In this document: piece after piece, positions 11,434 to 59,507 of the stretch
Layout: each line of letters opens with the position of its first letter
Numbering within the stretch: position 1 is the stretch's first letter
Source of the DNA: Pseudomonas sp. B21-040
Lineage (GTDB): Bacteria > Pseudomonadota > Gammaproteobacteria > Pseudomonadales > Pseudomonadaceae
Assembly (NCBI RefSeq): GCF_024748695.1
Contig: NZ_CP087176.1
Coordinates: forward strand, 3,651,501 to 3,715,500
DNA: 64,000 bases
Reading direction: 5' to 3'
Translations under genes and position numbers: made by a program
Notes under the pieces: model-generated
What the model was told of the DNA's origin: nothing
The model's input: the letters and a program-made list of their open reading frames with translations, nothing else
The model's database searches: none

Positions 11434-11530
11434 CTGACGCTGATCAACACTGTCCGCGCACGTCTGATTCACGCACGCACGTCCTGCTGTGGCAGGTGCT
11501 TCAAGTTGTCGCAGGTAGCGGGTCAGCGCT

Positions 11531-11571
11531 CATCTGATCCGCTTTTTATTGCAATACCTGAGTCTGTTATG
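11531..11571 (+). promoter_or_regulatory. Shared 41-bp element upstream of ccoG
   Basis: TCTGATCCG at 11533-11541 and CTGAGTCTGT at 11558-11567, separated by 16 bases. The same two blocks with the same spacing occur before ccoN (51863-51903) and, inverted, before nirA (51795-51835). The element ends 57 bases before the ccoG ATG. Both blocks begin CTGA, giving a direct repeat 24 bases apart, the layout often bound by MocR-type regulators. Binding by the regulator at 13188-14597 is inferred. Confidence 0.7.
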
Positions 11572-11628
11572 CAAACAGATCGACGCTCATAGTGCGCTGG
11601 CCTGATGGAGGCTGATGAGCGACAGACC

Positions 11629-13056
11629 ATGAGCGATAGAATCCCCGTCCGATTAGTTGAAAGCGCCCCTGTACAGACTTTTGAGCCTTCGCGTCCAAAG
11701 CTGAAGGCCAAGTCCAGCGACAACTTGATCCATACCCGCAGTTTTACCGGCCTGTTCCGCACCTTGCGCCTGAGCGGTGCGGGTTTTCTGTTTTTACTGT
11801 TTTTCGGCACGGTGTGGCTGAACTGGGGCGACCGCCAGGCGGTGCTCTGGGACCTTTCCGAAAGCAAATTCCACATCTTTGGCGCGACCTTCTGGCCGCA
11901 GGATTTCATCCTGCTCTCGGCGCTGCTGATCATCGCCGCATTCGGCTTGTTTGCGATCACCGTGTTCGCCGGCCGGGTCTGGTGCGGGTACACCTGCCCG
12001 CAGAGTTCCTGGACCTGGATCTTCATGTGGTGCGAGAAGATCACGGAAGGCGAGCGCAACCAGCGAATCAAGCTGCAAGCCGCGCCATGGGGCTTGAACA
12101 AACTCTTGCGCCGCTCAGCCAAGCACACGCTGTGGCTGGCGATCAGCCTGCTCACCGGCCTGACATTTGTCGGCTACTTCACACCGATCCGGCCGCTGGC
12201 CGAAGAACTGCTGACCTGGCATATGGGCGGTGTCAGCCTGTTCTGGGTGCTGTTCTTTACCGGTGCCACTTACATCAACGCCGGTTGGTTGCGTGAAGCC
12301 GTGTGCATGCACATGTGCCCGTATGCGCGGTTCCAGAGTGTGATGTTCGACAAGGACACCCTGACCATTTCTTATGATGCTGCCCGAGGCGAAAATCGTG
12401 GCCCGCGCAAACGTGAGGTGAAACCGGCCGAAGTCGGCCTGGGTGACTGCATCGACTGTCAGTTGTGCGTGCAGGTCTGCCCGACCGGCATCGACATTCG
12501 CGATGGCTTGCAGATGGAATGCATTGGTTGCGCGGCCTGCATCGACGCCTGTGATTCGATCATGGACAAAATGGGCTACGCCCGCGGGCTGATCAGCTAT
12601 ACCTCGGAGCATGAATTGCAGGGTGGCAAGACGCACCTGCTACGGCCACGGCTGATCGGTTACACGGCGGTGCTGCTGGTGATGATCGGCGCCCTCGCCC
12701 TCGCGCTGGTGGAGCGGCCAATGGTGTCGCTGGACGTGAGCAAGGACCGTGGACTGTTCCGCGAGAACAGCCAGGGCCAGATCGAAAACATCTACAGCCT
12801 GAAGGTCATCAACAAAACACAGCAGCGTCAGGACTATCGTTTGACCTTGGTTGAGGGTGACGGCTTTCAGTTGCAGGGCAAAACGCAGCTGAGCCTGGCG
12901 CCCGGCGAGATTGTCGATGTGCCGGTGTCGGTGGCAATGACCACGGAGCGGCCAGCCAGCAGCTCGCAGGCGATCACGTTCAGGGTTGTCGACAGTGATG
13001 AACCGGACATTTATAGCGAAGCGAAGAGCCGGTTTGTTGCGCCGATGAACCGCTGA
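11629..13056 (+). CDS. ccoG: CcoG-type cbb3 oxidase assembly protein (second type, PA4131-like)
   Basis: 475 residues; a membrane-bound polyferredoxin of the CcoG/FixG/RdxA family, which reduces copper for cbb3 oxidase assembly. It has several membrane segments (about 45-65, 90-115, 165-185, 200-225, 340-360), the membrane CGYTCPQSSW motif, the ferredoxin region GDCIDCQLCVQVCPTGIDI and MECIGCAACIDACDS, and a C-terminal Ig-like FixG domain. The start is uncertain: MSDRIPVRL fits the family, but GGAGG lies 17 bases upstream, and another in-frame ATG is at 11605. No ccoNOQP operon is adjacent; the following gene is a MocR-type regulator, as at PA4131-PA4132 of P. aeruginosa. Confidence 0.9.
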   Translation: MSDRIPVRLVESAPVQTFEPSRPKLKAKSSDNLIHTRSFTGLFRTLRLSGAGFLFLLFFGTVWLNWGDRQAVLWDLSESKFHIFGATFWPQDFILLSALLIIAAFGLFAITVFAGRVWCGYTCPQSSWTWIFMWCEKITEGERNQRIKLQAAPWGLNKLLRRSAKHTLWLAISLLTGLTFVGYFTPIRPLAEELLTWHMGGVSLFWVLFFTGATYINAGWLREAVCMHMCPYARFQSVMFDKDTLTISYDAARGENRGPRKREVKPAEVGLGDCIDCQLCVQVCPTGIDIRDGLQMECIGCAACIDACDSIMDKMGYARGLISYTSEHELQGGKTHLLRPRLIGYTAVLLVMIGALALALVERPMVSLDVSKDRGLFRENSQGQIENIYSLKVINKTQQRQDYRLTLVEGDGFQLQGKTQLSLAPGEIVDVPVSVAMTTERPASSSQAITFRVVDSDEPDIYSEAKSRFVAPMNR

Positions 13057-13187: not shown

Positions 13188-14597
13188 ATGAAACGCTACG
13201 AAAAATTCGCCGACGACATCGCCGAACTGATCCGCTCCGGCGTCCTCGGTCCCGGCCAGCGCGTGCCTTCCGTGCGCTACGCCAGTCAAACCTACGGCGT
13301 CAGTCCGTCCACGGTGTTCCAGGCCTATTACCTGCTCGAACGCCGAGGCCTGATCCGCGCCCGGCCGCGCTCCGGCTACTTCGTCAACGCCCACGCCCCG
13401 AGCCCGTTTTCGGAGCCGGTGATCAGCAGCCAAGTCAACGAGTCCACCGAAGTCGACGTCAGTGAACTGGTGTTCTCGGTGCTCGACTCGATCAAGGACC
13501 CTAATACCGTCGCGTTCGGCTCCGCCTTTCCCAGCCCCTCCCTGTTCCCGCTGCAACGCCTGTCGCGCTCGCTGGCCAGCGCTGCCCGGGAAATGGACCC
13601 GCGCATGGTCGTCACTGACATGTCGCCCGGCAACCCGCAATTGCGTCGACAAATCGCCCTGCGCTACATGGTCGGCGGGCTGATGCTGCCGATGGAAGAG
13701 TTGCTGATCACCAACGGCGCGCTGGAAGCCTTGAACCTGTGCCTGCAAGCGGTCACGGAACCCGGCGACCTGGTGGCTATTGAAGCGCCGGCGTTCTACG
13801 CGTGCCTGCAAATTCTGGAACGCCTGAAACTCAAGGCGGTGGAGATTCCGGTGCACCCTCGGGACGGCATCGACCTGGGTGTACTGGCCCAGACGCTGGA
13901 ACGTCATCCGATCAAAGTCTGCTGGTGCATGACCAGCTTCCAGAACCCCATGGGCGCGACCATGCCCGAGGCGAAAAAGCAGGAATTGGTCGAGTTGCTG
14001 CGCCGTCATCAAGTACCGCTGATTGAAGATGATGTCTACGCCGAGCTGTATTACGGTCAGCAGGCGCCGAAACCGGCCAAGGCGTTTGATACGCAAGGGT
14101 TGGTGATGCATTGCGGCTCGTTCGCCAAAAGCCTGGCCCCCGGATACCGCATCGGTTGGGTCGCCGCCGGGCGTTACGCGCAAAAAATTGAACGCTTGAA
14201 ACTCATGACCTCACTGTGCGCCTCGATGCCGGCGCAGGCAGCCATCGCCGATTACCTGCAACACGGTGGTTACGACCGGCATTTGCGTAAGTTGCGTTAC
14301 GCCCTCGAAGAACAGCAAAGCGCCATGCTCGCCGCCATCGCCCGCTATTTTCCGGCACAGACCCGCGTCAGCCAACCGGCCGGCGGCTATTTCCTGTGGC
14401 TGGAATTACCGGCGCAGATGGATTCGCTGAAGTTGTTCCAGATGGCTTTGGCGCAGGGCATCAGCATCGCGCCGGGGCCGATTTTTTCGCCGACGCAGCG
14501 GTTTCGCAACTGTATCCGCTTGAATTACGGCAGCCCCTGGAATGAGGCGGCGGAGAAAGCCATGGAGACGTTGGGGCGGATTGTGCGGTCGTTCTGA
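13188..14597 (+). CDS. mpaR: MocR-type (GntR-aminotransferase) regulator, MpaR-like
   Basis: 469 residues. Residues 1-75 form a GntR winged helix (PSVRYASQTYGVSPSTVFQ, RPRSGYFV). The rest is a fold-type I aminotransferase domain with the PLP lysine in GSFAKSLAPGYRIGW. Such regulators bind PLP and a ligand rather than act as enzymes. It follows ccoG, matching P. aeruginosa PA4132 (MpaR), known to drive the orphan oxidase subunit CcoN4 during cyanide production. The match rests on family and context, not on an alignment. The predicted targets are the three sites at 11531-11571, 51795-51835 and 51863-51903. The start ATGAAACGC is chosen by fit to the HTH domain. Confidence 0.85.
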   Translation: MKRYEKFADDIAELIRSGVLGPGQRVPSVRYASQTYGVSPSTVFQAYYLLERRGLIRARPRSGYFVNAHAPSPFSEPVISSQVNESTEVDVSELVFSVLDSIKDPNTVAFGSAFPSPSLFPLQRLSRSLASAAREMDPRMVVTDMSPGNPQLRRQIALRYMVGGLMLPMEELLITNGALEALNLCLQAVTEPGDLVAIEAPAFYACLQILERLKLKAVEIPVHPRDGIDLGVLAQTLERHPIKVCWCMTSFQNPMGATMPEAKKQELVELLRRHQVPLIEDDVYAELYYGQQAPKPAKAFDTQGLVMHCGSFAKSLAPGYRIGWVAAGRYAQKIERLKLMTSLCASMPAQAAIADYLQHGGYDRHLRKLRYALEEQQSAMLAAIARYFPAQTRVSQPAGGYFLWLELPAQMDSLKLFQMALAQGISIAPGPIFSPTQRFRNCIRLNYGSPWNEAAEKAMETLGRIVRSF

Positions 14598-17985: not shown

Positions 17986-18213
17986 AGGCTGCGTTAGCTT
18001 GTAGCAGCTGCCGAGCAGCGCGAGGCTGCGTTCGGCTGCGAAGCAGTCGTAAATCCACCGCACGCGGTTTTCCTGAAACACCGCGTCGCCTGGTTTCACG
18101 ACTGCTTCGCAGCCGAACGCAGCCTCGCGCTGCTCGACAGCTGCTACAAGCTAACGCAGCCTCGCGCTGCTCGACAGCTGCTACGAGCAAACGCGGGCTC
18201 GGCAGCGACTACA
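17986..18213. repeat. Compound type A palindrome, copy 2 with extra arms
   Basis: The core palindrome runs 18001-18147. It is extended by AGGCTGCGTTAGCTT on the left, matched perfectly by the inverse on the right, so the arms reach 17986-18162. A second copy of the right arm (ACGCAGCCTCGCGCTGCTCG, about 18154-18184) and a degenerate third (about 18189-18213) follow in tandem. The 375-base gap 17845-18219 between the mucR start and the opmB end holds this element and, near the left end, presumably the mucR promoter. Confidence 0.85.
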
Positions 18214-49410: not shown

Positions 49411-49890
49411 TCAGCGTCGTCTGAACAACGGCCGAGGCTCAATCACCGAACGGCCGTACAACACGCTCATCCCGGCCAACCCCTTCAGCGCATCCTCGGC
49501 CGATTTGTCTTCGCGCACCGCGAAGCTGTCGAACCCGCATTGGCGCATATGGCTGAGTTGATCGCGCAGCACATCACCGATCGCGCGCAGCTCACCGGTC
49601 CATCCCATTCGAGTGCGCAGCAAGTACGCCTGGCTGTAACCGCGACCGTCACGAAAGCTCGGAAAATCCAGGGCAATCAACGGCAGCTTCTCAAACCATG
49701 GGTTAAGGCGTTCCACCTCATCATCCGGCCCCAGCCACACCGCATGCTGTGCAGGATTGAGCAGCCAGCGGTTCAACGGCAAAATCAGTGACCCGGCAGG
49801 CATTTCACCCTCCTGGTCCCTGACCAGCACCCACGGATCGTCAGCCACAATCCGCGCCACACCCTCCTCCAGCCGCAGCAGATTGTTCAT
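49411..49890 (-). CDS. DUF934 protein
   Basis: 159 residues, cytoplasmic, no membrane segment. The conserved stretches IALDFPSFRDGRGYSQAYLL and ELRAIGDVLRDQL are those of DUF934, a small family nearly always encoded after sirohaem sulfite/nitrite reductases. It overlaps the reductase gene by ATGA, so it is made with it; a role in electron supply or maturation is inferred. The P. aeruginosa counterpart in this context would be PA4129. Confidence 0.9.
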   Translation of the reverse strand: MNNLLRLEEGVARIVADDPWVLVRDQEGEMPAGSLILPLNRWLLNPAQHAVWLGPDDEVERLNPWFEKLPLIALDFPSFRDGRGYSQAYLLRTRMGWTGELRAIGDVLRDQLSHMRQCGFDSFAVREDKSAEDALKGLAGMSVLYGRSVIEPRPLFRRR

Positions 49891-51560
49891 GCCGTCACCT
49901 CCAGTACCTTCGGATACACCTGCTCCTTGAACGGCTCAAGACCGATGCGTAGCAGGGTGTCAACGAACAGTTCTTCGCTCTCGCGGTAATCGACAAACGT
50001 GTCGATGATCCGCTCGATTACCTCGGGTACTTCGGTGGCGCTGAAGGACGGGCCGATGACCTTGCCCAGCGCACTGTTCTTGCCCTGGCTGCCGCCGAGG
50101 GTGATCTGGTACCACTCGCTGCCGTTCTTGTCGACGCCCAGAATGCCGATGTTGCCGATGTGGTGGTGGCCGCAGGCATTCATGCAACCCGAAATGTTGA
50201 GGCTGATGTCGCCCAGGTCGTGAAGGTAATCCAGGTCCTCGAAACGTGCCTGAATGGCCTGGGCAATCGGGATCGATTTGGCATTGGCCAGTGCGCAGAA
50301 GTCGCCGCCGGGGCAAGCGATGATGTCGGTCAGCAAACCGACGTTGGCGCAACCCAGCCCCTGCTCGCAGGCCAGGCACCACAGCGTATGGAGATCCGCC
50401 TTGGGCACATCCGGCAGCACGATATTCTGTTCATGGGCGATGCGGATTTCACCGAAACCGAATTGCTCGGACCACTCGGCCACGGCCTGCATTTGCTCGG
50501 TCGTCACATCCCCGGGTGGCGAGGCGATCCCGGGTTTCGTCGACAGCACCACGCTGGTGTAACCCGCGACCTTGTGCGGTTGAACATTGCGGGTGACCCA
50601 GCGTGCGAACGCCGGGTTCTCGGCCAGGCGTGTGCCAAATTCCAGGTCAATGTCGGGCAGTGAACGGTAGTCGGGGGCCACGAAAGCACTGGCGACACGC
50701 TCATACTCGGTGCTGGTCAACTGCGCCGGCCCGTCCTTGAGGTACTGCCACTCCTCCTCCACTTCCTTGGCGAACGCTTCGATCCCCAGGGCTTTGACCA
50801 ATATCTTGATCCGCGCCTTGTACTTGTTGTCCCGCCGACCGTGGCGGTTGTAAACCCGCAGCACCGCTTCGACATAGGACAGCAAATGCTGCCACGGCAA
50901 GCCCTCGCGGATCTGCAAGCCAAGGATCGGCGTGCGCCCCAACCCGCCACCCACAATGACCCGCAACAGCTTTTGTCCATGGTCATCGCGATAAAGATAA
51001 AGACCTATGTCATGCATCATGATGGCGGCGCGGTCCTGCTCCGCCGAACAGATGGCGATCTTGAACTTGCGCGGCAGGAACAGGAATTCCGGGTTGATGG
51101 TCGACCATTGACGCAAGATTTCCGCCAGCGGACGTGGGTCCATCAGCTCGTCCGCCGCCACACCGGCGAACGCTTCGGTGGTGATGTTGCGCACGCAGTT
51201 GCCAGACGTCTGGATCGCATGCATTTGCACCTGCGCCAGGCGTTCGAGAATGTCCGGCACCTGAGCCAGCTCGATCCAGTTGAACTGCATGTTCTGCCGG
51301 GTGGTGAAGTGGCCATAACCGCGATCGTAATCCCGGGCGATGCTCGCCAGCGTACGCATCTGGCCGGCACTGAGCGTGCCGTAGGGAATCGCCACGCGCA
51401 GCATGTATGCGTGCTTTTGCATGTACAGACCGTTCTGTAAACGCAACGGCAGGAACTCTTCTTCGCTCAGCTCGCCGGCCATGAAGCGTTCGACCTGATC
51501 GCGAAACTGCGCAACCCGTTCGAAGACCAGGGCCCGGTCATAGTCATCGTACTGATACAT
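49887..51560 (-). CDS. nirA: Sirohaem nitrite/sulfite reductase (NirA/CysI-type, PA4130-like)
   Basis: 557 residues; six-electron reduction of sulfite or nitrite with sirohaem and a [4Fe-4S] cluster. Two ferredoxin-like halves are each followed by a sirohaem-binding half. The visible motifs are GHFTTRQNMQFNWIEL, TSGNCVRNITT, and the cluster ligands CPGGDFC and CMNACGHHHIG. Pseudomonads often have two such enzymes (PA1838 CysI, PA4130). The neighbouring DUF934 gene, orphan ccoN and shared 41-bp promoter element argue for the PA4130 type, whose expression rises with cyanide. Substrate choice cannot be read from sequence. The 234-base leader contains a type A palindrome. Confidence 0.88.
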   Translation of the reverse strand: MYQYDDYDRALVFERVAQFRDQVERFMAGELSEEEFLPLRLQNGLYMQKHAYMLRVAIPYGTLSAGQMRTLASIARDYDRGYGHFTTRQNMQFNWIELAQVPDILERLAQVQMHAIQTSGNCVRNITTEAFAGVAADELMDPRPLAEILRQWSTINPEFLFLPRKFKIAICSAEQDRAAIMMHDIGLYLYRDDHGQKLLRVIVGGGLGRTPILGLQIREGLPWQHLLSYVEAVLRVYNRHGRRDNKYKARIKILVKALGIEAFAKEVEEEWQYLKDGPAQLTSTEYERVASAFVAPDYRSLPDIDLEFGTRLAENPAFARWVTRNVQPHKVAGYTSVVLSTKPGIASPPGDVTTEQMQAVAEWSEQFGFGEIRIAHEQNIVLPDVPKADLHTLWCLACEQGLGCANVGLLTDIIACPGGDFCALANAKSIPIAQAIQARFEDLDYLHDLGDISLNISGCMNACGHHHIGNIGILGVDKNGSEWYQITLGGSQGKNSALGKVIGPSFSATEVPEVIERIIDTFVDYRESEELFVDTLLRIGLEPFKEQVYPKVLEVTA

Positions 51561-51599
51561 CTGGCTACCTCATCAGGGTTGTTCGCACGCTCTGCACCT

Positions 51600-51746
51600 G
51601 TAGCAGCTGTCGAGCACCGCGAGGCAGCGTCCGGCTGCGAAGCAGTCGTAAATCCTGTGCACGCGGTTCAACTGACAGACCGAGTCGCATGGTTTGACGA
51701 CTGCTGCGCAGCCGGACGCTGCCTCGCGGTGCTCGACAGCTGCTAC
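51600..51746. repeat. Dispersed palindrome, type A, copy 6
   Basis: GTAGCAGCTGTCGAGCACCG with its inverse, and inner arms GGCTGCGAAGCAGTCG / CGACTGCTGCGCAGCC. It lies between the predicted nirA promoter element and the nirA start, so it should be present in the 5' leader of that mRNA. Confidence 0.9.
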
Positions 51747-51794
51747 AGGGGGGTGGCGGTGTTTGTGGGTCGACTATGGACCTGCGGCGCAGTG

Positions 51795-51835
51795 CGTTAC
51801 AGATTCAGGTAAACACTAAAAAACCGTATCAGAGC
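51795..51835 (-). promoter_or_regulatory. Shared 41-bp element upstream of nirA
   Basis: On the minus strand it reads TCTGATACG (51833 to 51825), 16 bases, then CTGAATCTGT (51808 to 51799). It has the same blocks and spacing as the elements before ccoG and ccoN, and points toward nirA. A T-rich run (TTTTTT) follows the first block, as in the ccoG copy. Confidence 0.7.
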
Positions 51836-51862
51836 GCAGCAGATGACCGCAGGCAAACCTCG

Positions 51863-51903
51863 CATCTGATCCGCATAACTTTGGTTTTTCTGAGTCTGTT
51901 TTG
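51863..51903 (+). promoter_or_regulatory. Shared 41-bp element upstream of ccoN
   Basis: TCTGATCCG (51865-51873), 16 bases, CTGAGTCTGT (51890-51899). The first ten bases are identical to those of the ccoG copy. It ends 80 bases before the ccoN ATG. With the inverted nirA copy it forms a pair of divergent promoters 27 bases apart. Regulation by the MocR-type protein is inferred. Confidence 0.72.
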
Positions 51904-51983
51904 TTTCAGGCAGGGTTTCTACAGTCGACAACCTGCCAGGCCGGGTGGCCTGGCAAGACTTTGCAACCGTGGAAGCATTGACC

Positions 51984-53411
51984 ATGAGCACAGCAACAAT
52001 CGGACAGGCCTATAACTACAAGGTCGTGCGCCAATTCGTCGTGGCAACCATCGTATGGGGTGTCATAGGGATGGCGATGGGGGTGTGGATCGCCTCGCAA
52101 CTGGTATGGCCCGAGATGAACCTCGACCTGCCGTGGACCACCTTCGGCCGCTTGCGCCCGTTGCACACCAGCCTGGTGATTTTCGGTTTTGCCGGTAGCG
52201 CGCAATTTGCCGCCAGTTACTACGCCGTACAGCGCACCTGCCAGGTGCGGCTGTACTCCGACACCCTGGCCGCATTCACTTTTTGGGGGTGGCAATCGGT
52301 GATCGTGATCATGCTGGTCACCCTGCCGCTGGGCTATACCACCACCAAGGAATACGCCGAGATCGAGTTTAGCGGCGCGGTGTGGATGACCGTGGTCTGG
52401 GTCGCTTACGCCATCGTGTTTTTCACCACCGTGGTGCAGCGCAAGACCAAACATATCTACGTCGGCAACTGGTTCTTCGGCGCGTTCATCGTGGTCATTG
52501 CGATGTTGCACGTGGTCAATCACCTGTCGATTCCGGTGGACTGGTTCAAGTCCTATCCGGTGTATTCCGGGGCGACCGACGCCATGGTGCAGTGGTGGTA
52601 CGGGCACAACGCGGTGGGGTTTTTCCTGACCACCGGTTTCCTCGGGATGATGTATTACTTTGTGCCCAAACAGGTCGGGCGCCCGGTGTATTCCTATCGC
52701 CTGTCCATCGTGCATTTCTGGGCGCTGATCACCCTGTACATCTGGGCCGGTCCGCACCACTTGCACTACACCGCATTGCCGGACTGGGCGCAGTCGCTGG
52801 GCATGGCGATGTCGCTGATCCTGCTGGCGCCGAGCTGGGGCGGGATGATCAACGGCATGATGACGCTCTCGGGCGCCTGGCATAAATTGCGCACCGACCC
52901 GATCCTGCGGTTTCTGGTGCTGTCGCTGGCGTTCTACGGCATGTCGACGTTCGAAGGCCCGATGATGGCGATTAAAACGGTCAACGCCCTCTCCCACTAC
53001 ACCGACTGGACCATCGGCCATGTGCACGCTGGGGCACTGGGCTGGGTGGCGATGATCACGTTCGGCGCGGTGTACCACATGGTGCCGAAAGTCTTCGGCC
53101 GCGAGCAGATGCACAGCATCGGCCTGATCAACGCGCACTTCTGGCTCGCCACCATCGGCACCGTGCTGTACATCGCGTCGATGTGGGTCAACGGCATTAC
53201 CCAGGGCTTGATGTGGCGTGCAATCAACGACGACGGCACGCTGACCTACTCCTTCGTCGAAGCCTTGCAGGCCAGCCATCCGGGGTATGTGGTGCGCTTT
53301 ATCGGTGGCGTGTTCTTCCTCAGCGGCATGCTGTTGATGGCCTACAACACCTGGCGCACGGTGCGGGTGGCGGACGTGATGATGGCTGAACGTGAAGCGC
53401 AGTTTGCCTGA
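51984..53411 (+). CDS. ccoN4: Orphan cbb3 cytochrome c oxidase subunit I (CcoN4-like)
   Basis: 475-residue inner-membrane haem-copper oxidase subunit with 12 or so helices. Haem and copper ligands are visible as His in [38 protein letters not shown] and [12 protein letters not shown]. No ccoO, ccoP or ccoQ follows, so it must join subunits made elsewhere. In P. aeruginosa the orphan CcoN4 (PA4133), next to the nirA-type reductase gene, exchanges into the enzyme and gives resistance to cyanide. The first codons before MSTATIGQ are excluded because GGAAG lies at a suitable distance before this ATG. Confidence 0.92.
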
Positions 53412-53426
53412 GGCAAGGAGCCATAC

Positions 53427-53648
53427 ATGTATGAAGTTCTGTTGAATGCGATGGTCGTATCAGTGCTTTGGCTGGGGGTTGAGTACAGCCTCAAGCGGCA
53501 GACGCCGCAGAGTCTGGAGGATGCCAGCCTGATTCCATTTGCCGACGACCCCGAGGTGGCGCGGCGGGTGGAACTGGCCACCGGGAAGGTTGTGAATGCA
53601 GTGGCGCCGGAAGAGGTGAAGCCCGGTTGGATCAACCTCGACATCTGA
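53427..53648 (+). CDS. Small membrane protein after ccoN (PA4134-like)
   Basis: 73 residues. The first ~20 (VLLNAMVVSVLWLGVEYSL) could form one membrane helix; the rest is soluble and acidic. AAGGAG lies seven bases before the ATG and the gene starts 15 bases after ccoN, so it is co-transcribed. In size and place it matches PA4134 of P. aeruginosa. A small accessory subunit role, comparable to CcoQ, is only a guess. Confidence 0.75.
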   Translation: MYEVLLNAMVVSVLWLGVEYSLKRQTPQSLEDASLIPFADDPEVARRVELATGKVVNAVAPEEVKPGWINLDI

Positions 53649-53664
53649 CCCACCACCTGTCCGT

Positions 53665-53756
53665 TGTAGGAGCCGAGCTTGCTCGCGATGCGGCCATTCC
53701 AGCCAACATCAATGTTGTCTGTCAGCCCGTCATCGCGAGCAAGCTCGGCTCCTACA
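53665..53756. repeat. Dispersed palindrome, type C
   Basis: TGTAGGAGCCGAGCTTGCTC and its perfect inverse GAGCAAGCTCGGCTCCTACA around about 50 bases. Second copy of the element at 2740-2831. It lies between convergent genes. Confidence 0.88.
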
Positions 53757-53768
53757 CGGGGGATTGGG

Positions 53769-54278
53769 TCAGTCAGGGAGGACCTGGCCGCGATCGCGCG
53801 GAATCAGGAGCTGCAACTGCTGCGCCAGAAAGTTTGCATCGAACGCAAACGTGTCCGGGTCTTTCAAGCCGTTGGTCTTGCGCCACTGCCAACTGGTCGA
53901 CGGCGGCAGGCACACCAGCGACACGCTGCCATAGCGCGCAGCCGTCAGCCCCATCACCGCCAATGAAATCTGACCGCCAGCACCCATTACATCCGGCACG
54001 AACTCCACCGGCTTGCCGGCGATGACAATTGACAGTTTCTCAGTCTTGAACATCGACGTCTCGACCGGCACGCTCGGCCCTGAAGCGACATACGCCTCAC
54101 GACTCACTTCCAACAGATTGGGCGCCTGGACCGGTTCCAGCCACTGCTGGATCTGATCGAACAACTCACCGATACGCGTCGCCCAAACCGCCGATTGCGA
54201 TTCAAACAGTTGCTTCTTGTGCGCTTCACTTTCTGCGTAGTGGCGAAGCATCTCGCCCAGTTGCTGTACGTCGTCCAT
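53769..54278 (-). CDS. Hypothetical protein, 169 residues
   Basis: The start MDDVQQLGEML is selected because AAAGGA lies eight bases upstream; the frame continues 41 codons further without support. Residues 1-70 are helical and charged; the middle (LSIVIAGKPVEFVPDVMGAGG) is beta-like; the C-terminus is KDPDTFAFDANFLAQQLQLL. No signal peptide, membrane helix or known motif. Not recognised. It stands alone between a type C palindrome and a divergent racemase gene. Confidence 0.65.
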   Translation of the reverse strand: MDDVQQLGEMLRHYAESEAHKKQLFESQSAVWATRIGELFDQIQQWLEPVQAPNLLEVSREAYVASGPSVPVETSMFKTEKLSIVIAGKPVEFVPDVMGAGGQISLAVMGLTAARYGSVSLVCLPPSTSWQWRKTNGLKDPDTFAFDANFLAQQLQLLIPRDRGQVLPD

Positions 54279-59360: not shown

Positions 59361-59507
59361 GTAGCAGCCGTCGAGCAGCGCGAGGCGGCGTTCGGCTGTG
59401 CAGCAGTCGTGAGATTTGGCGATGCGGTGTTTCAGGAATATCACATGTTCAGGTTTTACGACTGCTGCGCAGCCGAACGCCGCCTCGCGCTGCTCGGCAG
59501 CTGCTAC
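59361..59507. repeat. Dispersed palindrome, type A, copy 7
   Basis: GTAGCAGCCGTCGAGCAGCG and inverse, with inner arms CGGCTGTGCAGCAGTCG / CGACTGCTGCGCAGCCG. It lies between the ABM gene and the cupin gene. Confidence 0.9.

Follow-up and report, generated by a model that had tools for sequence, protein, structure and literature searches.

Between nirA and an orphan ccoN of Pseudomonas sp. B21-040, two copies of a bipartite sequence face away from each other, and a third copy precedes ccoG. Which protein reads this element, how it is placed within the promoters and what genes stand behind it are the questions addressed here, for the window (the whole stretch of 64,000 nucleotides analysed), for the complete genome and for its relatives.

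A pattern search with TCTGATnCG-N16-CTGArTCTGT at up to three mismatches identified three matches in the window, all of them with no mismatch, against 0.07 expected from shuffled sequences. The preliminary description had placed the element in three promoters, that of ccoG included, with each copy facing its gene. All three copies do match at every defined position, and they face ccoG (start about 11629), nirA (start 51560) and ccoN (start 51984). The 19 defined positions counted there are 18 on recounting (8 + 10, one of them R), within a core of 35 bp; the distance of 27 bases between the divergent copies holds for the 41-bp boundaries used there, and is 31 bases between 35-bp cores. Across the genome, a single contig of 6,753,303 bases, the same threshold gives 17 matches, of which 4 are exact, none has one mismatch, 1 has two and 12 have three, while the reversed control pattern gives 2. 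With 17 fixed positions, one two-fold position and equal base frequencies, about 4e-4 exact matches are expected by chance in 2 x 6.75 Mb, so a chance origin, already judged very unlikely, is very unlikely indeed; with four exact copies and none at one mismatch, the pattern is not frequent across the genome. The fourth exact copy lies outside the window, where the author of the preliminary description could not see it; nor did that author know that half of the site had been published. The features are collected in Table 1.

Table 1. Genes, element copies and -10-like hexamers. Positions are those of the window, except in the last row.
Feature	Position	Strand	Basis
Bipartite element, copy of the ccoG-mpaR operon	11533-11567	+	exact match
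-10-like hexamer CATAGT, 20 bases past the ccoG element	11588-11593	+	sequence; offset test
ccoG, cytochrome oxidase accessory protein, FixG/RdxA type	11629-13056	+	TIGR02745, 564 bits, over cut-off
mpaR, MocR-type regulator (wHTH + aminotransferase-like), 469 aa, probable binder of the element	13188-14597	+	domain matches
DUF934 gene overlapping the nirA end	49411-49890	-	PF06073, 132 bits
nirA, siroheme nitrite/sulfite reductase family	49887-51560	-	PF01077, PF03460 over cut-off
-10-like hexamer CATAGT, 20 bases past the nirA element	51773-51778	-	sequence; offset test
Bipartite element, nirA copy	51799-51833	-	exact match; heptamer CTCTGAT, not ATCTGAT
Bipartite element, ccoN4 copy	51865-51899	+	exact match
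-10-like hexamer TACAGT, 20 bases past the ccoN4 element	51920-51925	+	sequence; offset test
Orphan ccoN, CcoN4-type cbb3 oxidase subunit I	51984-53411	+	TIGR00780, 721 bits, over cut-off; ORF from 51945
73-codon ORF directly past ccoN, CcoQ4-like (inferred)	53427-53648	+	position; one N-terminal hydrophobic stretch
Fourth exact element copy, outside the window	G000:C1:4048230-4048264	-	genome-wide search

The start codon of ccoG is an inferred one, the ORF being given from 11605, and the NCBIfam nirA models score the product of 49887-51560 below their cut-offs. The DUF934 gene is, by its position, presumably the counterpart of PA4129. As in the PA4129-PA4134 cluster of P. aeruginosa, described in PMC10790758, ccoG, mpaR, nirA with its partner gene and ccoN4 are all present, the left box lies at a matching distance from the predicted start of transcription, and the residues of the PLP pocket are identical. 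Unlike in that cluster, the genes here form two halves about 36 kb apart, ccoN4 is divergent to nirA instead of standing beside mpaR, and a gene for a 27-aa protein is a further predicted target. The halves occupy 11.6-14.6 kb and 49.4-53.6 kb, and all three promoters keep perfect elements. In another genus (L121, L123), ccoG and nirA diverge from one region and ccoN follows mpaR. NirA is described as a cyanide-tolerant member of the cluster in PMC12688703.

Could the copies simply be a dispersed repeat (REP or MITE), or a chance similarity? A dispersed palindromic repeat is indeed present in the nirA leader; the element copies, however, have in common only the conserved positions at fixed spacing, with spacers that differ, they are exactly four in their exact form, each before a gene, and they are conserved across 13 genera. 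A dispersed repeat is ruled out as their source by copy number, spacing and conservation, and the probability of this whole reading is negligible. The palindrome of the nirA leader (51597-51749) lies between the element and the start codon, and has 59-nt arms, 95% complementary and 35 nt apart. The end of its arm recurs, in both orientations, at 18001-18184 and 59361-59507, which marks it as a dispersed intergenic repeat; it seems to have been inserted behind the nirA promoter. A second inverted repeat, with 65-nt arms that are 74% complementary, is found at 53645-53776, at the end of the ccoQ4-like ORF.

Part of the answer was already known from P. aeruginosa, namely MpaR, its cyanide dependence and the left half of the site. 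According to PMC10790758, ccoN4 expression needs mpaR, and full induction needs cyanide; in PA14 the left heptamer ATCTGAT is needed for ccoN4 expression, and this heptamer is known in three P. aeruginosa promoters. The PA14 constructs tested the left end and the heptamer, and the right block is not reported there as needed. Earlier work cited in the same paper had put a different, GC-rich MpaR motif upstream of mvfR, and the reaction of the PLP of MpaR with cyanide is a proposal of Smiley et al. Unlike the published P. aeruginosa site, the one described here is bipartite, with a fixed 16-base spacer, and the nirA copy is without the first A of the heptamer, which makes it the exception among the four exact copies of the genome. 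What is new is the two-part structure of the site, the constant geometry of the promoters and, as a fourth target, a gene of 27 codons for a predicted single-helix protein; a search of literature listings, mostly without subscription papers, found no description of the right block, of the fixed geometry or of the 27-aa gene.

In order to evaluate conservation, the element was searched at up to one mismatch in genomes of the genus, of the family and of the order. It is found in 355 of 398 genus genomes, and is thus conserved in related strains, with no reversed-control match noticed in the rows inspected; in the family it occurs in 92 of 148 genomes, belonging to 13 of 19 genera. The order sample of 145 genomes includes 5 of the family, all five with a match, while outside the family 7 of 140 match, at 8 sites that all lack four consecutive Ts after the left box, and the reversed control gives 2. 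These matches outside the family are read as background.

A second set of 80 named loci was chosen by the MpaR protein alone, among the matches listed, to avoid a choice based on the motif. All 80 have a site at up to two mismatches before ccoG, nirA, ccoN or mpaR, and 71 at up to one. The sites in these loci are 91 (75 before ccoG, 11 before nirA, 1 before ccoN, 1 before mpaR and 3 before none of these), and the reversed pattern at up to three mismatches has 0 matches in the 1.04 Mb that the loci comprise. When the spacer length was varied, the left CTG being required, 16 bases gave 91 sites, and all the lengths of 10-15 and 17-22 together gave 1 site. P. aeruginosa is absent among the 80 named loci listed, and the comparison with it rests on published distances.

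Among all fetched loci, many of which were fetched by the motif, 209 distinct sites have 0-1 mismatches, leaving out the near matches of the own genome (L005-L017) and the five order loci; 208 of them precede ccoG, ccoN, nirA, mpaR or a microprotein ORF, and the remaining one (L328) precedes ccoG under a looser start rule. Ten sites with two mismatches have no known target gene behind them, and some of these look like chance matches. In the 12 genomes with both sites of the divergent nirA/ccoN pair, the gap, tallied by eye, is 31 in 10 and 32 in 2; other divergent pairs, e.g. nirA/ccoG, have gaps from 18 to 148.

The anatomy of the element was analysed on a class-balanced profile, built from 122 ccoG, 50 nirA, 24 ccoN and 97 microprotein sites at up to four mismatches, and leaving out 10 mpaR and 47 unassigned sites. 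The consensus is A-TCTGATMCG-n-TTTT and AYCTGARTCTGTT, the first A of the heptamer reaching 74%. Since the sites were picked by the pattern itself, part of the invariance is due to selection. Compared with itself, the profile matches best in direct orientation, at an offset of 24 (2.3 turns) and then of 30 (2.9 turns), values that fit whole helical turns only approximately, while inverted matches score lower. MocR operators often have direct repeats, and in those that have been characterized the spacing is two or three turns (PMC5320631); the main text of that paper has no MpaR, PA4132 or ccoN. The element resembles the GabR, TauR and PdxR operators in having direct repeats about two to three helical turns apart; it differs from them in the pair of CTG boxes of its right block, which lie 24 and 30 bases from the left one, and ligand and regulon differ as well (PMC5320631).

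Downstream of the element, 202 distinct sites with 0-1 mismatches were examined for a hexamer with A at its second and T at its sixth position: 94% of them have it at offset 20, and at most 19% at any other offset between 5 and 44 (39 tested); once the five order background loci are dropped, the figure for offset 20 is 189 of 197. In PA14, ATCTGAT lies 137-131 bases upstream of the ccoN4 ATG, and the reported transcription start 69 bases upstream of it, which puts the heptamer at -68 to -62 (PMC10790758). With the profile laid on this ruler, the hexamer falls at -12 to -7 and the right block at -42 to -33; conversely, the PA14 heptamer is at the distance predicted from the placement of the -10-like hexamer in the profile. 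Positions -12 to -7 are the normal place of a -10 box. Measured from the published position of the MpaR heptamer, 61-62 bp upstream of the start, the -10-like hexamer is here exactly where that position requires, the start itself being a predicted one. A search for a -35/-10 pair within 51560-52000 found none, a weak result, as shuffles average only 0.1. A right block lying over a missing -35 box would suit an activator making contact with RNA polymerase at that place.

The same placement suits a reading in which only the left box is the site of MpaR, and RNA polymerase reads the right block CTGARTCTGT as part of the promoter, in place of a -35 box: it would fill the -35 zone from -42 to -33, where the interval between nirA and ccoN has no -35/-10 pair (with the reservation just given), and the need demonstrated in PA14 is that for the left heptamer alone (PMC10790758). 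Against it, the right block repeats the left CTGA directly, as the self-match at 24 and then 30 indicates; its CTG and CTGT are as invariant as the left box, among sites picked at up to four mismatches; the whole bipartite pattern is limited to four exact copies in the genome; and repeats of this kind are common in the MocR operators of PMC5320631. We consider this reading unlikely, and prefer one in which both halves belong to the operator.

The protein encoded at 13188-14597 is the candidate for its reading. It matches PF00392 (GntR) and PF00155 (aminotransferase) over the Pfam cut-offs, and, among solved relatives, GabR chains match it over both domains, as does 7pq9, a 478-aa chain named PLP-dependent aminotransferase family protein. 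The latter is, we assume, PdxR. Residues F114, F203, Y284 and K314 have the same numbering as in the P. aeruginosa MpaR of Smiley et al. (PMC10790758). For 20 genomes all matches were listed in full: 17 have one MpaR match (64-100% identity), 3 have none, and the other matches reach at most 43%. The idea that the matches at 64-71% are a paralogue was rejected, because there is at most one such MpaR per genome listed and paralogues do not exceed 43%.

MpaR was counted as absent from a genome when no match was stronger than 1e-119, which applies to 18 of 398; four candidates were scored per genome, and copies with a broken frame are missed by this definition. As tallied by eye, MpaR and the element (up to one mismatch) are both found in 351 of the 398 genomes, MpaR only in 29, the element only in 4 and neither in 14 (Fisher p = 7.9e-12). 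The 29 genomes, out of 380 with a strong MpaR match, that are without such a site include 11 with a gene-linked site at two mismatches and 18, by eye, without. As for the 4 of 18 genomes that carry the element with no strong MpaR match, two have contigs that stop short of the expected mpaR or within it, in the third mpaR is present with its frame broken in several places, and the fourth is G167. Of the 12 genomes read in genus g6, 10 have an MpaR of only 62-64% identity, and none of those ten 3.1-kb loci has an element at up to five mismatches.

Some irregular copies of the regulator gene were observed. At L204 (G384:C1:1319500-1324000) the frame of mpaR is broken in several places, which may be due to decay or to sequencing error; the 27-aa gene, elsewhere in that genome, keeps a perfect element. 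At L139 (G212), where mpaR and the 27-aa gene are neighbours, mpaR contains a single internal TAG. In two single-contig genomes, G108 and G034, MpaR matches only over residues 1-351 and 147-469, both at 96% identity, and these regulators are possibly truncated or interrupted.

As mpaR usually belongs to an operon that carries a site, and so is one of the targets, its co-occurrence with the element is not independent evidence of binding, and for this reason the PA14 genetics carry weight for the role of MpaR. The same fact leaves room for a different regulator, a paralogous MocR or a low-oxygen one, with mpaR co-occurring as a target, and the listed genomes do have paralogues, at 37-43% identity. 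The genetics argue otherwise: in PA14, ccoN4 expression needs both mpaR and the promoter box, and ccoN4 stays at the same level in planktonic cells that have lost Anr, with a slight decrease in biofilms (PMC10790758). Moreover, paralogue-level matches are present also in 12 of the 14 genomes that have neither MpaR nor the element. Control by Anr/FNR was rejected for the nirA-ccoN interval: no TTGAT-N4-ATCAA at up to two mismatches is found between 51560 and 52000. The nearest match upstream of ccoG is at 11434-11447, with 2 mismatches; over the whole window the same search gives 40 matches, against a shuffle mean of 14.7. Another regulator is thus a very unlikely reader of the element. The preliminary description had inferred a site for a MocR-type, MpaR-like protein, responsive to cyanide or to low oxygen; the attribution to MpaR is borne out by the domains, the pocket residues, the co-occurrence and the ATCTGAT box, and the low-oxygen alternative has no Anr site in that interval to support it.

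Taken as the operator of MpaR, a PLP-binding MocR-type activator that switches on four transcripts together, which we hold to be very probable, the element would be made of a left box (A)TCTGATMCG, a T-rich stretch and the right block AYCTGARTCTGT, where CTGA would repeat the left CTGA 24 bases on and CTGT 30 bases on. The operator would extend from about -67 to -33, the right block taking the place of the missing -35 box, upstream of the -10 hexamer at -12 to -7. MpaR, probably once its PLP has reacted with cyanide, would bind directly to both halves as a dimer and recruit RNA polymerase; direct binding, the geometry of the dimer and the role of the right block are what we infer from the arrangement of the site. 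It would so switch on ccoG-mpaR, with positive feedback, nirA-DUF934, ccoN4-ccoQ4 and the distant gene of a 27-aa membrane protein with a predicted single helix.

This last gene is identified by the fourth exact copy. The ORF that the copy faces has 27 codons and an AGGAGG resembling a ribosome site (MGKMALFLGGFLVLTILIGALATISPA). In its own genome the ORF is alone between two unrelated larger ORFs, which by eye look like membrane transporters. To search other genomes, 16 variants that had first turned up behind the motif were aligned, and the alignment served as the query. Of 398 genus genomes, 305 carry the ORF; in the family sample 12 of 148 do, 11 from the own genus and 1 from another. In a tally by eye, the ORF is present in 2 of 18 genomes where MpaR has no strong match, and in 303 of the 380 others. 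Of the copies located by the peptide, 66 were scored (the best-scoring 30, and 36 picked by choice from the listing); within 300 bases upstream, the element is present at up to three mismatches in 65 and with four in 1, and the reversed pattern is never better than 6.

When all loci were gathered, 96 distinct DNA versions were obtained, encoding 49 peptides, all of 27 codons. Pairwise differences at the three codon positions are 28047, 16154 and 53947, from pairs that are not independent, a pattern as expected of coding sequence. The protein has one hydrophobic stretch, with a mean hydropathy of 2.48 over 19 residues, which on hydropathy only predicts a single transmembrane helix. No Pfam or NCBIfam family matches it over cut-off, and its profile finds only chance-level matches among PDB chains; weak matches of this protein and of the 32-aa one described below to PsbX, DUF7555, SGM_5486, MWFE, DUF4500 and MitoNEET_N are below cut-off and were taken as chance. 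No known RNA reaches the gathering threshold at the 27-aa locus (L004) or at the nirA-ccoN locus (L003), and the L004 element itself coincides in part with a terminator-like match, which was likewise taken as chance. Clustering of the ORFs around the 27-aa loci shows no neighbour common to all, the mpaR cluster being present in one clade, in four genomes of which, those read, the gene is directly downstream of mpaR, with the element between.

Our best guess is that the 27-aa protein is a small subunit or an assembly factor of the CcoN4 oxidase. The closest parallel is CcoM, a 36-aa subunit of the P. stutzeri cbb3 oxidase, which is linked to the function of that oxidase and is, like the predicted 27-aa membrane protein, tiny and long overlooked (PMC10433244); the likeness drawn here is one of description, and an association of the 27-aa protein with an oxidase is a guess. 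The protein might instead be unrelated to CcoN4, and serve a cyanide-insensitive bd-type oxidase or general membrane stress. Its solitary position in the own genome, between ORFs resembling transporters by eye, would agree with this, as would YnhF, a small single-helix protein that belongs to the E. coli bd oxidase and was earlier linked to stress. The other genes behind the element, however, are ccoG, ccoN, nirA and mpaR, the first two belonging to a cbb3 oxidase, and no site with 0-1 mismatches is left over when these four and the microprotein ORF are scored. A bd-oxidase or stress role is a rather unlikely option, to be kept in mind beside the association with CcoN4.

Different small ORFs are found beside mpaR or the element in other lineages. 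In G043, a perfect element faces a 32-codon ORF, whose product has no family over cut-off and no match among solved chains; none was found in 138 family genomes, the source genome not being among the rows shown. Genus g6 has a 40-codon ORF beside mpaR in 12 matching genomes, 2 with a perfect element and 10 without a site at up to five mismatches; G480, a thirteenth genome of g6, is not among the matches. Two copies of this microprotein, one beside mpaR and one elsewhere, are present in 10 of the 12 (L347-L356, L357-L364); the second lies, in the two loci read, beside unrelated genes, named by eye as OsmC-like and aldo/keto-reductase-like. Of 8 named loci inspected in the P. nitroreducens group, 7 have an ORF of 39-40 codons after mpaR; L133 and L250 have a site at two mismatches, and the other named loci have none that close. 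The 32-, 39-40- and 40-aa products have one hydrophobic stretch each, by hydropathy of one example each. The putative single-helix microproteins of the different lineages are treated here as separate peptides.

The regulatory slot held in most of the genus by the 27-aa protein may be a constant one, taken by a 40-aa protein in g6, by a 39-40-aa protein in the P. nitroreducens group and by a 32-aa protein in one genome. We tentatively propose, as an idea somewhat more likely to fail than to hold, that the core job of MpaR includes the production of a dedicated membrane microprotein by which the CcoN4 oxidase, or else its assembly, is tuned to respiring with cyanide present, with the slot conserved and the peptide replaced between lineages. 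As for the element, it is a fuller description of a partly known operator, and the surprise is its conserved microprotein target: it marks an overlooked 27-aa membrane protein gene in many Pseudomonas genomes. As a 35-bp site whose geometry within promoters is fixed, and which was tested on hundreds of genomes, it allows the regulon to be predicted throughout the family, and the conserved, family-less microprotein gene is a candidate for how CcoN4-containing oxidases help respiration in cyanide.
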